NCBI RefSeq assembly: GCF_023703775.1
Contig: NZ_CP098514.1
Span: 1,116,001-1,180,000 of the forward strand
Origin: Haloplanus sp. GDY1
Lineage (GTDB): Archaea > Halobacteriota > Halobacteria > Halobacteriales > Haloferacaceae
Length of the DNA stretch: 64,000 nucleotides
Direction: 5' to 3'
The notes under the pieces were generated by a model, which did no database searches, was not told the origin of the DNA, and saw only the letters and a list, made by a program, of their open reading frames with translations. Positions 6,356 to 24,926 of this stretch are shown in pieces (the first letter of the stretch is position 1; each line of letters begins with the position of its first letter). Position numbers and translations under genes: made by a program.

Positions 6356-6441
6356 CATCCGCCTCGTCCCGCCTGTGAATCCACGGCGACGGCACGCCCG
6401 ACGGGCGGAATCTTGAGGATGCTCCGCGACCGACGGTGACC

Positions 6442-7704
6442 ATGTCCGACGGGGGGACGCTTCCCAGCGTGACCGACGACGGCGAGCCCCGCATCGTCTG
6501 TCACGTCGATATCGACTGCTTCTACGCCTCCTGTGAGCGCCTGCGCGATCCGGCCCTGCGCGGCGAACCCGTCGTGGTGGGGATGGGCTACGAATCCGGC
6601 GAACCGCACGGCGCCGTCGCCACGGCGAGTTACGAGGCCCGGGAGTTCGGCGTCGAGAGCGCCCAACCCATCTCACAGGCGCTGGAACGGCTCCCGCGGA
6701 TGGCGACGGCCCGCGACGACCCCGACCTCGATACGGCTGCGGCGGGGTACTACCGCCCGGTCGACCTGGAGTACTACCGCGAGGTGGCCGCGGAGATCAA
6801 GGGTATCCTGCGGGAGTGTGCCGACCGGCTTCGGGAGGTGAGTGTCGACGAGGCGTACCTCGACGTGACCGAGCGGACCGCGTGGACCGTCGTCAACGGC
6901 CGACCGCTCGCCGAGGGGTACGCCCGCCACGTCAAGGAACGGATCGCCCGCGAGGTGGGCGTGCCCGCGAGCGTGGGCGTCGCGCCCAACATGAGCGCCG
7001 CGAAGGTGGCGAGCGACCACGACAAGCCGGACGGCCTCGTCGTCGTCGAACCCGGCGAAGTGCGGGACTTTTTCGCCCCGCTGCCCGTCTCGGCGGTCCA
7101 CGGCGTCGGCCCGGTGACGGCGCGGGAACTGGGCGAGATGGGCGTCGAGACGGCCGGCGACCTCGCGGCCGCCGACCCCACAACCATCGAGGAGCGGTTC
7201 GGGGAGCGCGGGGTGACGCTCCACGAGCGAGCGCGCGGGCACGACGACCGGGAAGTGACGCCGAAGGGGCGGCCAAAGAGCCTCTCCCGGGAGTCGGCGT
7301 TCACCGAGGCGACCGACGACGCCGACCGGCAACGCGAGACGGTGGCGGGGCTGGCGGCGGACGTGGCCGACCGGGCCGAGGGGAAGGGCGCACTCTACCG
7401 CACCATCGGCATCAAGGCGGTGACGCCGCCGTACGACGTGAACACGCGCGAGCGGTCGCTGCCGGGACCGGTGGCCGACCCGGACCTCGTGCGGGAGGTG
7501 GCGCTCGACCTCCTGGCGGAGTTCGCGGGCGAACCGGTCCGCAAGCTCGGGGTTCGGGTGTCGAACCTCCAGTTCGCGGCGGCCGAGCAGGCGAGCCTCG
7601 ACGGCTGGAACCGGGGCGAGGGCGCGGAGACGGCCGACCGCGAGGACGCCGACGACGCGTCGCCCGGACAGTCCTCGCTCGGGGACTTCGATCGGGGCGA
7701 GTGA
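6442..7704 (+). CDS. dinB: DNA polymerase IV (Y-family)
   Basis: A 420-residue Y-family translesion polymerase. Catalytic acidic residues are visible at Asp23 (CHVDIDCFYASC) and Asp136-Glu137 (SVDEAYLD); the helix-hairpin-helix thumb (AVHGVGPVTARELGEMG) and little-finger domain follow. After an acidic linker the chain ends in QSSLGDF, a PCNA-interacting PIP box (QxxLxxF). ATG 6442 is chosen over the GTG at 6436 because the family begins shortly after. The gene sits right behind the transposon remnant, whose hairpin lies in its upstream region; whether that affects expression is unknown. Confidence 0.95.
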   Translation: MSDGGTLPSVTDDGEPRIVCHVDIDCFYASCERLRDPALRGEPVVVGMGYESGEPHGAVATASYEAREFGVESAQPISQALERLPRMATARDDPDLDTAAAGYYRPVDLEYYREVAAEIKGILRECADRLREVSVDEAYLDVTERTAWTVVNGRPLAEGYARHVKERIAREVGVPASVGVAPNMSAAKVASDHDKPDGLVVVEPGEVRDFFAPLPVSAVHGVGPVTARELGEMGVETAGDLAAADPTTIEERFGERGVTLHERARGHDDREVTPKGRPKSLSRESAFTEATDDADRQRETVAGLAADVADRAEGKGALYRTIGIKAVTPPYDVNTRERSLPGPVADPDLVREVALDLLAEFAGEPVRKLGVRVSNLQFAAAEQASLDGWNRGEGAETADREDADDASPGQSSLGDFDRGE

Positions 7705-7829
7705 CCGTCGGTGCGCGTCCGATCGCAGTATGGCGTCCGATCGGACGCGGACGCGGGGTCGGTCGCCACGATGGCATCGGACGCCCGTCTGACGCGGAAC
7801 TATGGGGGACGGGACCCTCTCACGCACCG

Positions 7830-21107: not shown

Positions 21108-21761
21108 ATGCCCAGTCACCTCACCATCATCATCGCGGGCGGCGGACGTGTCGGCTACCAGGCAGCGGTCACCCTCGACGATCGGGGGCACGACCTCACG
21201 GTGATCGAGCGGGATCCGGACCGGTGCGACGCCATCGCCGACGAGTACGTGGCGACGGTCATCCGCGGCGACGCCTCCAACCCCGACATCCTCGGCCAGG
21301 CGGGCGTGGAGTCGGCGGACGTGATCGCCGGACTGACGGGCGAACCGGGGCTGAACCTGGCGGTCTGCATGGAGGCCGCGGAACTGGCGCCCGGGATCCG
21401 AACCGTCGCGCGAATCGACAGCACGGAGCGGGCGGGCTACCGTCGCTTCGTCGACGAGACGGTGTTCCCGGAGGACGCCGGCGCGCGCGTCGCCGTCAAC
21501 GAGATCGAGGGGAGCGACGTGCGCTCGCTCGCCGACGTGACCGGCGACCTCGACATCGTGGAGATCCGGGTCGAGGAGGGCGCGCCGGCCGCGAACAAGG
21601 AACTCCGCGAGACCCGGTTCCCGGCGGGCACGCTCGTCATCTCGGACGACGACGGTGACCGAGTCGCCCGGCCGGACACGACGCTCACGCCCGGCAAGCG
21701 CTACGTCATCGCGGTCGAGTCGGACGTGGCCGACGAGGTGATGAACCTGCTTCGCGGCTAG
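21108..21761 (+). CDS. TrkA-type RCK protein (NAD-binding plus TrkA-C)
   Basis: A 217-residue cytoplasmic regulator. The N-terminal Rossmann fold has GGGRVGYQAA and the acidic ERDPDR that binds the ribose. The C-terminal part (about 140-217) is a TrkA-C/RCK-C domain with FPAGTLVIS and PGKRYVIAV. TrkA-like proteins sense nucleotides and gate transporters. It directly follows the APC permease with one base between stop and start, so it probably controls that permease rather than a potassium channel. The stop codon is interlocked with that of the convergent HAD gene in CTAG at 21758-21761. Confidence 0.87.
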   Translation: MPSHLTIIIAGGGRVGYQAAVTLDDRGHDLTVIERDPDRCDAIADEYVATVIRGDASNPDILGQAGVESADVIAGLTGEPGLNLAVCMEAAELAPGIRTVARIDSTERAGYRRFVDETVFPEDAGARVAVNEIEGSDVRSLADVTGDLDIVEIRVEEGAPAANKELRETRFPAGTLVISDDDGDRVARPDTTLTPGKRYVIAVESDVADEVMNLLRG

Positions 21762-22534
21762 AGGAGCCGGTCGAGGTCGGCCAGCGAGTCGAGGACGTAA
21801 TCGGGCGTCACGTCGCTCCGGGCCAGGTCGTCGTCGTCGGTGACGCCGGTGCGGACGAGCGCCGTCGTCATTCCGGCGCGGTCCCCGAGCGCGACGTCGG
21901 TGTCGAGGCGGTCGCCGACGACCAGACACGCCGCGGGCGGGACGCCGAGGCGGTCGCGGACGATCCGGAGCGCGGGGTCGGAGGGCTTCCCGAGGACGAT
22001 ATCGGGATCACGGCCGACGACGCCGGCGACGGCGTTGATGATCGCCCCCGATCCGGGGACGTCGCCCTCGGCCGCGGGGATCACCATGTCGGGGTCGGTG
22101 CCGACGAGCGTGGCGCCGCCCGCGCACGCCCGCAGCGCCGCACAGAGGCGGTCGTAGTCGAACGACCGGTCGATCGAGAGGACGACGGCGTCGGCCCGGG
22201 TTTCGTCGGTGACGACGGTCAGCCCCGCGTCGGTCAGCTGGTCGACGAGCGCCGGTTCGCCGACGACGAAGAGGTCGTCCTCGGCGTGGTTGTCGGCGAG
22301 GTAGGTCGTGGCGACCGTCCCGGCGGTGACGATCTCCGCGGGGTCGACCTCGAAGCCGGCCCGTCGGAGCCGGTCGGCGTAGGCCGGCGGCCGTTTGGTC
22401 GGGTTGTTCGAGACGAACAGCCGCCGACAGCCGGCCGCCGCCAGCCGGTCGAGTCCCTCGGCCGCGCCGGGGATCGGGTCGTCGCCGCGCACCACCGTCC
22501 CGTCCACGTCGAGGACGACTCCGCGGTAGGTCAT
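21758..22534 (-). CDS. HAD-IIA family phosphatase (NagD-like)
   Basis: A 258-residue HAD hydrolase. Motif I DVDGTVVRGD is at the N-terminus, motif II is FVSNNPTKRP, motif III and IV are GKPSDPALRIV and VVGDRLDTDVALG. The cap lies between motifs II and III, as in the NagD/4-nitrophenylphosphatase group. It dephosphorylates small phosphates; the substrate is unknown. ATG 22534 matches the family start. Confidence 0.88.
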   Translation of the reverse strand: MTYRGVVLDVDGTVVRGDDPIPGAAEGLDRLAAAGCRRLFVSNNPTKRPPAYADRLRRAGFEVDPAEIVTAGTVATTYLADNHAEDDLFVVGEPALVDQLTDAGLTVVTDETRADAVVLSIDRSFDYDRLCAALRACAGGATLVGTDPDMVIPAAEGDVPGSGAIINAVAGVVGRDPDIVLGKPSDPALRIVRDRLGVPPAACLVVGDRLDTDVALGDRAGMTTALVRTGVTDDDDLARSDVTPDYVLDSLADLDRLL

Positions 22535-22662
22535 CGCCGATGCGTAGGGGTGGCGGGCAGTTGAGACTGCCGGCTGCGGGTCGATCCGCCCCTTCGTTTC
22601 GGCCGCGTCGCGCCGGTTGCAAACCAAAGAGCCATTGGGACGCCGCCCCACCTCCCGACACC

Positions 22663-23439
22663 GTGACGAACACGCAGCTGACGCTCGTTCAGATCGACAA
22701 CTACGGGCCGTGGACGGTGACGCCGGAACCGCGCCGGGAGATGGACCTCCAGACGCTCCAGTCGCGTCTCTTCGCCGACATCGCACAGTTCGTCGGCCAC
22801 CGGGGCGGCTACGCCTTCTTCACCCGTTTCGACAACATGGTCGCGGTGACGAACGGGCTGGGCGCCGACGCCCACCGACTCCTCCAGGAGTCGACGGGCA
22901 ACCGCTACCCGGTCACCCTGAGCCTCGGCGTCGGCGTCGACGCGAACCCGGCGGTCGCACTGGAGGCGGCGACCGAGGGCCTCCAGCGCGCCGGCAGCGC
23001 ACAGGACGGCGACCGCCGGGAGGTGCTCGCCGGGGACCCGATCACCGACGGGAGCGACGACGTCTCCATCGCTCACTTCGACGTGAACGACGCGACCGAG
23101 AAGTACACCGACCGACTCAACGAGTTCGACTCCTTCATCGAAATCGAGCAGGGGTACGCGACGCTGATGCGCTACCTCCGGGAGGAACACGGCGGCCTCT
23201 CCTTTTTCGTCGGCGGCGACAACATCATCGCCGTCACCCCCGAGATGGGGAGGGACGCCTACCGCGACGCCATCGACCACGTGGAGGAGTCGGTGGGCGT
23301 CGAACTCAAGGTCGGGGTCGGCCGCGGCGCGACCGCTCACGAGGCGGGCATGGCCGCGAAACACGCGTTAGAGGAGTGCCGTCACCGCGGGACCGCGGTG
23401 GAACTCGACGACGTGGCGGCGGGCGTCGAAGGGGAGTAG
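22663..23439 (+). CDS. gch3: GTP cyclohydrolase III
   Basis: A 258-residue archaeal GTP cyclohydrolase III, which opens GTP to a formylaminopyrimidine phosphate, an early step toward riboflavin or F420. Two cyclase-like ferredoxin folds are visible with GYAFFTRFDNMVAVTNGLG and SFFVGGDNIIAVTP; GVGVDANPAVALEAATE and GVGRGATAHEAGMAAKHALE are the tandem helix motifs. GTG 22663 begins the family sequence (TNTQLTLVQIDNYGPW). A long nested inverted repeat follows the stop. Confidence 0.93.
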   Translation: MTNTQLTLVQIDNYGPWTVTPEPRREMDLQTLQSRLFADIAQFVGHRGGYAFFTRFDNMVAVTNGLGADAHRLLQESTGNRYPVTLSLGVGVDANPAVALEAATEGLQRAGSAQDGDRREVLAGDPITDGSDDVSIAHFDVNDATEKYTDRLNEFDSFIEIEQGYATLMRYLREEHGGLSFFVGGDNIIAVTPEMGRDAYRDAIDHVEESVGVELKVGVGRGATAHEAGMAAKHALEECRHRGTAVELDDVAAGVEGE

Positions 23440-23440
23440 A

Positions 23441-23516
23441 GTAGCGATTGAAAGTCACTGCACATCAGATCGAAGTACGGCGTACGATCTGAGGTGTATG
23501 CGGTTTCAATCGCTAC
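23441..23516. repeat. 76-bp nested inverted repeat between convergent genes
   Basis: Outer arms are perfect over 13 bp: GTAGCGATTGAAA (23441-23453) and TTTCAATCGCTAC (23504-23516). Inside lie 12-bp arms with one mismatch: CACATCAGATCG (23461-23472) and CGATCTGAGGTG (23485-23496). The whole is lower in GC than its neighbours. It starts right after the gch3 stop and ends six bases before the aminotransferase stop. It could be a bidirectional terminator, a MITE/REP-like repeat or a processed RNA structure. Confidence 0.7.
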
Positions 23517-23521
23517 GATAG

Positions 23522-24685
23522 CTACGCCTCGATCGTGGGCTCGTCCACGTCGAAGTTCTGGGCGTCGAGGGCCTCCTCCATCGCGGTCAGGAGGCAGGCG
23601 ACGTTCTGCCGGCGGGCGGAGTAGCCCATGCAGCCGATGCGCCAGACCTCACCCTCCAGCGCGCCGAGGCCGCTCGCGATGTCGACGTCGTACTCCGCCA
23701 TCAGGTACTCGATGACGGCGTCGTCGTCGACGCCGTCGGGCACCTCGACCGTGTTCAGGCTAGGGAGCCAGTACTCCTCCTCGGCGGCGGGCGTGAGACC
23801 GAGGTTCTGGAGGCCCTCACGGAGTTCGCCCGCCACCTCGCGGTGGCGCTCCCAGCGGTTCTCCAGACCCTCCTCGGCGACGATCCGCAGGGCCTCGCGG
23901 AGGCCGTAGAAGTTCGTCGTCGGGGCGGTGTGGTGGTAGTTGCGCTCCTCGCCCCAGTACTCCATGACGAGGTCGAGGTCGAGATACCAGGAGCCGGTGT
24001 CGTCGTCGCGGTTCAGTATCTTCTCGCGGGCGCGCTCGCCGATCGTGAGCGGCGTCGCGCCGGGGGTACAGGAGAGGCACTTCTGGGGGCTGCCGTAGGC
24101 GGCGTCGATGCCCCAGTCGTCGACGCGGAGTTCGACGCCCGAGAGCGAGGTGACACAGTCCGCGACGACGACGGCGTCGTGGTCGTGGGCGATGTCGGTG
24201 AGGTCCGGCACGTCCGGCTGGCGGACGCCGGTGCTGGTCTCGGCGTGGACGAACCCGAACACGTCGGGCTGGTGCTCGTCGAAGGCGTCGGCGACGTCCG
24301 CCGGCTGGAGCGGTTCGCCCCACGGCGCGTCGACGGTCACCACGTCGCCGCCCGCGCGGCGCGCGATCTTGCCCATCCGGTCGCCGAAGTAGCCGTTGGT
24401 CGGAACCAGCATCGTGTCGCCCGGTTCGACGAGGTTGCCGATGGCCGTCTCCATCGCCGCGGTGCCCGTCCCACTGGTGGCGAGCGTCCACTCGTTGTCC
24501 GTCTGGAACGTGTAGCGCAGCAGTTCCTGGATGTCGTCCATCACCTCCAGGAACGACGGGTCCATGTATCCGAGCGCCTGCGTCGACATCGCGCGCAGGA
24601 CGCGCGGGTGGATCATGCTCGGACCGGGACCCATCAGGATTCGTGAGGGAGTGTCGAGTTCACTCGTCTCGGGTGGACTCCTCAT
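23522..24685 (-). CDS. Alanine-glyoxylate / serine-type PLP aminotransferase
   Basis: A 387-residue class V aminotransferase. Family marks: RILMGPGPSMIHPRVL at the N-terminus, SGTGTAAMETAIGNLVEPGD, FVHAETSTGV, DCVTSLSG and the PLP lysine in YGSPQKCLSCTPG. These match alanine-glyoxylate, serine-pyruvate and ureidoglycine-glyoxylate enzymes; the true substrate pair is open. ATG 24685 is supported by a TATA-like TTTTTAC (minus strand, near 24708-24714). An inverted repeat 52 bp further upstream may be its operator. Confidence 0.88.
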   Translation of the reverse strand: MRSPPETSELDTPSRILMGPGPSMIHPRVLRAMSTQALGYMDPSFLEVMDDIQELLRYTFQTDNEWTLATSGTGTAAMETAIGNLVEPGDTMLVPTNGYFGDRMGKIARRAGGDVVTVDAPWGEPLQPADVADAFDEHQPDVFGFVHAETSTGVRQPDVPDLTDIAHDHDAVVVADCVTSLSGVELRVDDWGIDAAYGSPQKCLSCTPGATPLTIGERAREKILNRDDDTGSWYLDLDLVMEYWGEERNYHHTAPTTNFYGLREALRIVAEEGLENRWERHREVAGELREGLQNLGLTPAAEEEYWLPSLNTVEVPDGVDDDAVIEYLMAEYDVDIASGLGALEGEVWRIGCMGYSARRQNVACLLTAMEEALDAQNFDVDEPTIEA

Positions 24686-24736
24686 ACCCGACCCGACGGA
24701 CGAGCGAAGTAAAAACCCCCGTGTTCGTGGCAATAT

Positions 24737-24761
24737 ATTGTCGAAGGAGAGGTTCGACAAT
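24737..24761. promoter_or_regulatory. 9-bp inverted repeat upstream of the aminotransferase
   Basis: Perfect arms ATTGTCGAA (24737-24745) and TTCGACAAT (24753-24761) with a 7-bp spacer. It lies about 25-45 bp upstream of the TATA-like element of the minus-strand aminotransferase gene. Symmetry and distance suit a dimeric regulator binding site. No adjacent regulator gene identifies the protein. Confidence 0.4.
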
Positions 24762-24926
24762 TGCGACATGTGAGCATCCCCCGTGTCGTTCTCACCCACG
24801 GATATGGACGGCCGTTCAAGTCCGGGAGGCTTCCCGGCGACGGGTGGTCGTCGGCCGGTGGAGGCCCGGACCGTCGGCCGTGAGGTCGTCGGCACGCCGG
24901 ATGCCACACGCCCACGGCCGGCGGTA

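Follow-up and report, generated by a model that had tools for sequence, protein, structure and literature searches.

The palindrome between two convergent genes at positions 23441-23516 of the window (the whole stretch of 64,000 nucleotides of Haloplanus sp. GDY1 that was analyzed) belongs to a family of very small mobile elements found in salt-loving archaea, and this copy sits at the point where the two genes meet head-on at their ends. We consider it, with a probability of about 0.88, to be a non-autonomous element of the IS630/Tc1-mariner type (MITE) that inserts at TA, often within CTAG, and duplicates the TA. IS630/Tc1-mariner elements and their MITEs are known, and the element reads as a variant of these with a nearly fixed length, nearly full palindromy and a stop codon in its arm.

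The site of the palindrome reported in the initial annotation was confirmed, and its copies extend the 76-bp unit to TATA-GTAGCGATTGAAA ... TTTCAATCGCTAC-TATA, that is, to 84 bp laid out as TATA-type ends, long outer arms, an asymmetric 7-bp segment per side, inner arms and a 12-bp centre. A covariance model, R1, built from 18 copies that include the window copy itself, scores 87.9 bits (E 1.4e-19, - strand) on 23437-23520. The features of the window are as follows:

23437..23520, no strand: complete element of 84 bp including both TATA-type ends (covariance model R1)
23437..23438, no strand: left copy of the duplicated TA (alignment with unfilled relatives)
23441..23453, + strand: left outer arm GTAGCGATTGAAA, 13 bp
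23461..23472, + strand: left inner arm, 12 bp, 11/12 paired
23485..23496, - strand: right inner arm, 12 bp
23504..23516, - strand: right outer arm, 13 bp, perfect inverted copy of the left
23519..23520, no strand: right copy of the duplicated TA (alignment with unfilled relatives)
22540..23439, + strand: left gene, GTP cyclohydrolase III (PF05165)
23522..24907, - strand: right gene, class-V aminotransferase (PF00266), stop just outside the element
7690..7773, no strand: second copy of the element, GC-rich (71%), R1 54.6 bits, E 3.3e-11

Both pairs of arms had initially been described as perfect, which is true of the outer pair, while the inner pair matches at 11 of 12 positions. The RNA fold of 23430-23530 has an energy of -44.9 kcal/mol against -26.1 +/- 3.2 for shuffled sequences (z -5.9), and none of 200 shuffles folded as well. 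The exact 13-bp arm occurs 12 times in the host genome and the reversed pattern not once, so the palindrome is not a chance symmetry. Its low GC content was also borne out, at 46% for the 84-bp unit compared with 67% for the genus loci.

The flanking pair is indeed convergent, consisting of the GTP cyclohydrolase III and class-V aminotransferase genes. The statement that the palindrome exactly fills the gap between their stop codons needs adjusting: the stop-to-stop gap is 23440-23521, of which the 76-bp unit leaves 1 + 5 bases, and when counted as 84 bp the element overlaps the TAG of the left gene, which is composed of the left TA copy (23437-23438) and position 23439. In four relatives (L067, L068, L071, and L106) the left gene ends GAG TAG at this junction, and alignment with unfilled relatives gives an inferred target of GTAG, not CTAG. 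To judge from these relatives, the target was probably GAG-TA-G-CTA, lying between abutting stops, and the right gene would have kept its own stop just outside the element. A single substitution separates TATAG from TAGAG, and the left gene probably regained its TAG after the insertion by one T-to-G change at 23439. Elsewhere in the window, at 21758-21761, there is a CTAG formed by the overlapping stops of genes 21108-21761 (+) and 21758-22786 (-) from which the element is absent.

The initial annotation had left open that the unit might prove to be single-copy. The 76-bp unit used as a query found matches in 7 of 60 genomes, and a hand count puts the places occupied in the host at 13; the copies are dispersed. 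Among the 76 copies first collected, a set restricted to candidates that were at least 60% symmetric and whose arms were close enough to one of three arm types, 74 are exactly 84 bp long; for the counts of gene context given below, nine copies were added and those of genome G057 left out. Five copies at different loci of genome G007 are identical over their 84 bp, indicating that the element moved recently. We refer to the family of the window copy as family 1; a sibling, family 3 (represented by its copies among the matches listed), has the same length and different arms (GTAGCGTTTGGAA / GTAGCCTTTGTAA). When 293 genomes of the order were sampled, with at most 15 candidates scored per genome, R1 matched 109 genomes and 38 of 87 genera, figures that cover families reached by element-derived queries and miss distant ones. 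Related elements were also present in 16 and 30 plasmid records of named haloarchaea, including Haloferax mediterranei, Natrialba magadii, Haloarcula hispanica, Halobellus and Natrinema, mostly at places with no gene beneath them in a gene table that is itself incomplete. Rfam returned two matches, both far below threshold, and we recognised no account of this element in the open-licence full-text literature, a scope outside which ISfinder lies.

A second family of palindromic MITEs has arms similar to TAGTGATTATTG, an inner CACCGGT and ends resembling those of an insertion sequence that we call IS630-B; its copies lie at L086:802-887, L100:806-887, L101, L050:43-127, L064:2920-3001 and L122:5364-5443. 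Among the matches listed it occupies, in other species, 3 of 10 family-1 junctions: the window junction in G003 (L086), the L060 junction in G008 (L101) and the L029 junction in G003 (L100). A third palindrome type (ATACTGCCGGCTGTAA...), which has the same asymmetric inner segments, was seen at L028:4432-4511 and L111:1026-1105. We also observed pairs of 84-bp elements only 1-5 bases apart, apparently side-by-side insertions, in genome G081 (C5:50921-51090, C48:137696-137864, and C49:27971-28143).

To reconstruct the insertion site, the flanks of ten family-1 copies were joined without the element and searched in 12 genomes of the genus, and 40 orthologous loci, among the matches listed, were aligned to the ten sites. 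At many of these loci a few bases separate the ends of the two genes. Among the matches listed, CTAG stands at the junction in at least one relative for five of the ten sites (L062, L041, L021, L048, and L050) and in no relative for the other five; three aligned loci carry another palindrome in place of the CTAG junction. The filled site reads C-TA-[TAGTAGCG...CGCTACTA]-TA-G, i.e., the TA is duplicated, and the base outside TATA, read outward, is C at 117 of 152 ends. Filled and unfilled sites and flank counts thus agree on the TA duplication of an IS630-type MITE, and the element is short, dispersed in many copies and, at 84 bp, too small to encode a transposase. Insertion of IS630 elements into TA with duplication of the TA is described in PMC2170065, and a CTAG preference of an IS630-type element is given by the title of a paper cited there (Tenzen and Ohtsubo, 1991).

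The ends of the element point in the same direction. We read one type of IS630 element, IS630-A, in 10 copies from four genomes (G003, G004, G182, and G209); it measures 1,059 bp from TATA to TATA in eight of them, and among the 10 copies the base beyond the left end is C in seven and the base beyond the right end G in nine. IS630-A and the MITE share the start TATAGTA, and their ends match at 15-20 of 25 bases, the next best TA-starting 25-mer in L128 having 13 matches. The right end of the MITE clearly prefers the right end of IS630-A (18-20 vs. 14-17 matches), and the left end has no preference (IS left/IS right 18/18, 17/16, 16/17, and 15/17); the inverted ends therefore resemble those of an IS630 element, with left/right polarity supported at the right end only. 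Two reading frames of IS630-A hit HTH_33 and DDE_3. The IS630-A transposase, at L132:968-1980, is split over two overlapping frames, an HTH_33 part and a DDE_3 part, which suggests programmed frameshifting. The ends of IS630-B are like TCATAGTG / TGATAGTG and resemble the second palindrome family.

Based on its ends, target and duplication, we infer that family 1 would be mobilized in trans by an IS630-type transposase. DDE_3 (IS630) genes were found in five of the 12 genomes of the genus and in six of the 15 genomes of the order that are rich in copies, the other nine having none. A matching transposase was not found within the same genome for either G007 or the host: G007, with the youngest copies, gave no DDE_3 hit, and the sole DDE_3 hit of the host (G000) has an internal stop. 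This is not disqualifying, since MITEs can outlive their enzyme (PMC3119063). No autonomous copy bounded by the family arms was found: the candidate lone ends turned out to belong to copies of 84 bp or to decayed ones, or else enclosed no transposase that we recognised. In comparison with IS630/Tc1-mariner elements and their MITEs, the element shares TA duplication, CTAG preference, inverted ends and a short non-coding unit, but differs in being nearly all of one length, palindromic almost throughout and, in family 1, endowed with an arm that contains a stop codon in frame; in addition, no matching transposase was found in the genome with the youngest copies. The SMR-A and SMR-B elements of Haloquadratum walsbyi are likewise haloarchaeal, 80-110 bp long, many-copied and bounded by inverted ends, and one element of that species, HqIRS41, has at 80 bp the length of ours minus the duplicated TAs; however, in PMC3119063 the SMRs are described as lacking a target duplication and hitting other mobile elements, whereas the TA is duplicated here.

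The placement of the copies was judged by scoring codon usage in flanks of 180 bases, with a threshold of 8 for the genus counts and 6 for those in two further genera, g31 and g6, and many copies had no clear gene call on one side. By this measure 30 of 48 family-1 copies lie between convergent genes, compared with 47/2628 random positions and 11/161 CTAG sites outside elements, a background from which the 40 loci aligned to the ten sites were excluded; within the family-1 loci plus the window, 10 of 87 CTAG sites are convergent. For family 3 the count is 1/36 among the matches listed. CTAG is itself depleted about tenfold in the genus (161 found vs. 1708 expected from base composition), and some of the sites are the overlapping TAG stops of two convergent genes, both stops being in frame at 10 of the 11 convergent CTAG sites. 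An in-frame TAG becomes TAT AGT AGC GAT TGA upon insertion, so that the arm adds YSSD and a stop four codons on; at such a target the arm gives a new stop to each gene whose end lay at the site, as the sequences show. Where a gene runs into a family-1 end, 61 of 72 ends are in this frame, as assigned by codon score; 56 of them stop at the arm TGA, and in five the first codon is already a TAG or TAA, three of these five ends having lost the TGA. The left end of the window copy is one of these five. A stop by codon 5 is present in all 61 in-frame ends and absent in 5 of 35 other family-1 ends (Fisher p 0.005), and both genes are in the arm-stop frame in 23 of the 30 convergent copies. We rejected a general rule by which an arm stop leads to convergent placement: it fits the contrast between families 1 and 3 and fails in g31, where none of 22 stop-bearing copies is convergent (convergent CTAG sites, 1/32). 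In g6, none of 16 stopless copies is convergent (CTAG sites, 1/28).

How family 1 came to be placed in this way admits of several explanations. The most probable, although we would give it somewhat less than an even chance, is survivorship only: insertion into overlapping stops is harmless, and copies there persist. The scarcity of CTAG and the in-frame stops at nearly all of its convergent occurrences are as expected from this, but non-coding CTAG sites outnumber convergent ones (71 vs. 11), yet hold 5 family-1 copies against 30. Moreover, copies with four or fewer changes are already convergent in 5 of 10 cases, and divergence does not separate the placement classes (p 0.19), by which we also rejected age as the cause. 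An account in which the element works in place, kept between convergent genes as a bidirectional terminator or protector of mRNA 3′ ends, appears unlikely. The convergent placement itself, the strong hairpin, the occupation of four sites in two species each and a coordinated change of paired positions, found both across families and within family 1 (in the latter, 20 complementary double changes vs. a shuffled mean of 4.4 and maximum of 15 in 500 shuffles), all speak for a role of this kind, but covariation would also arise in inverted ends recognised by a single enzyme, and family 3, which folds alike, is seldom convergent. Nor is there a terminator pattern: no hairpin followed by a T-run occurs in 23300-23700, the intrinsic form of the bidirectional terminator first proposed is thus not seen, and nothing in the sequence marks a terminator.

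The second copy in the window bears on the same point, as it is the copy with the most double changes. R1 has no match to it in the corresponding loci of 11 relatives, in six of which the junction is readable, and the copy is hence lineage-specific, making founder variants a simpler cause of its double changes than a working hairpin. We therefore did not take the compensatory changes to prove that the hairpin functions; palindrome-templated mutation is a possible further confounder. The TGA of this copy ends the upstream gene 6436-7704, whose last codons are provided by the arm. By eye, this gene encodes a DinB-type polymerase ending QSSLGDF-DRGE.

The remaining alternatives concern the identity of the element. 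GTAG-tagged REPs depend on another enzyme and are not known to produce a target duplication. They are palindromes with GTAG at one end and a length of 20-40 bp (PMC3733652), and a palindrome of the REP/BIME type, mobilized by a Y1 (RAYT) enzyme, would share with ours the extragenic position, the palindromy and the GTAG at the foot of the stem; the 84-bp length, inverted ends and TA duplicated at both ends make this very improbable. Of the REP/MITE-like mobile repeat originally suggested, it is thus the MITE that stands, on its dispersed copies, unfilled sites, TA duplication and IS630-like ends. Still more remote is a CRISPR-repeat remnant, an idea that derives from the arm ending in ATTGAAA. 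The units are single and dispersed, with no array of regularly spaced repeats (as already observed at the outset), unfilled sites exist, and the architecture recurs in sibling families whose arms differ; we consider the relation ruled out and the resemblance apparently coincidental.

Returning to the MITE, we tentatively suggest, as a possibility rather than the favored account of its placement, that convergent overlapping stops are a shared harbour for MITEs of haloarchaea and that family 1 is fitted to it, the arm TGA lying in frame with the TAG it destroys so that both neighbours gain YSSD and a stop and neither is harmed. If this is true, dozens of proteins of the genus would have transposon-encoded C-termini. 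The work describes a palindromic element of nearly fixed length that occurs in 38 of the 87 sampled genera of the order and illustrates a simple route for a transposon into a gene-dense genome, namely landing on overlapping stops and supplying new ones; its paired filled and unfilled orthologous junctions offer material for testing the effect of the hairpin on transcript ends.
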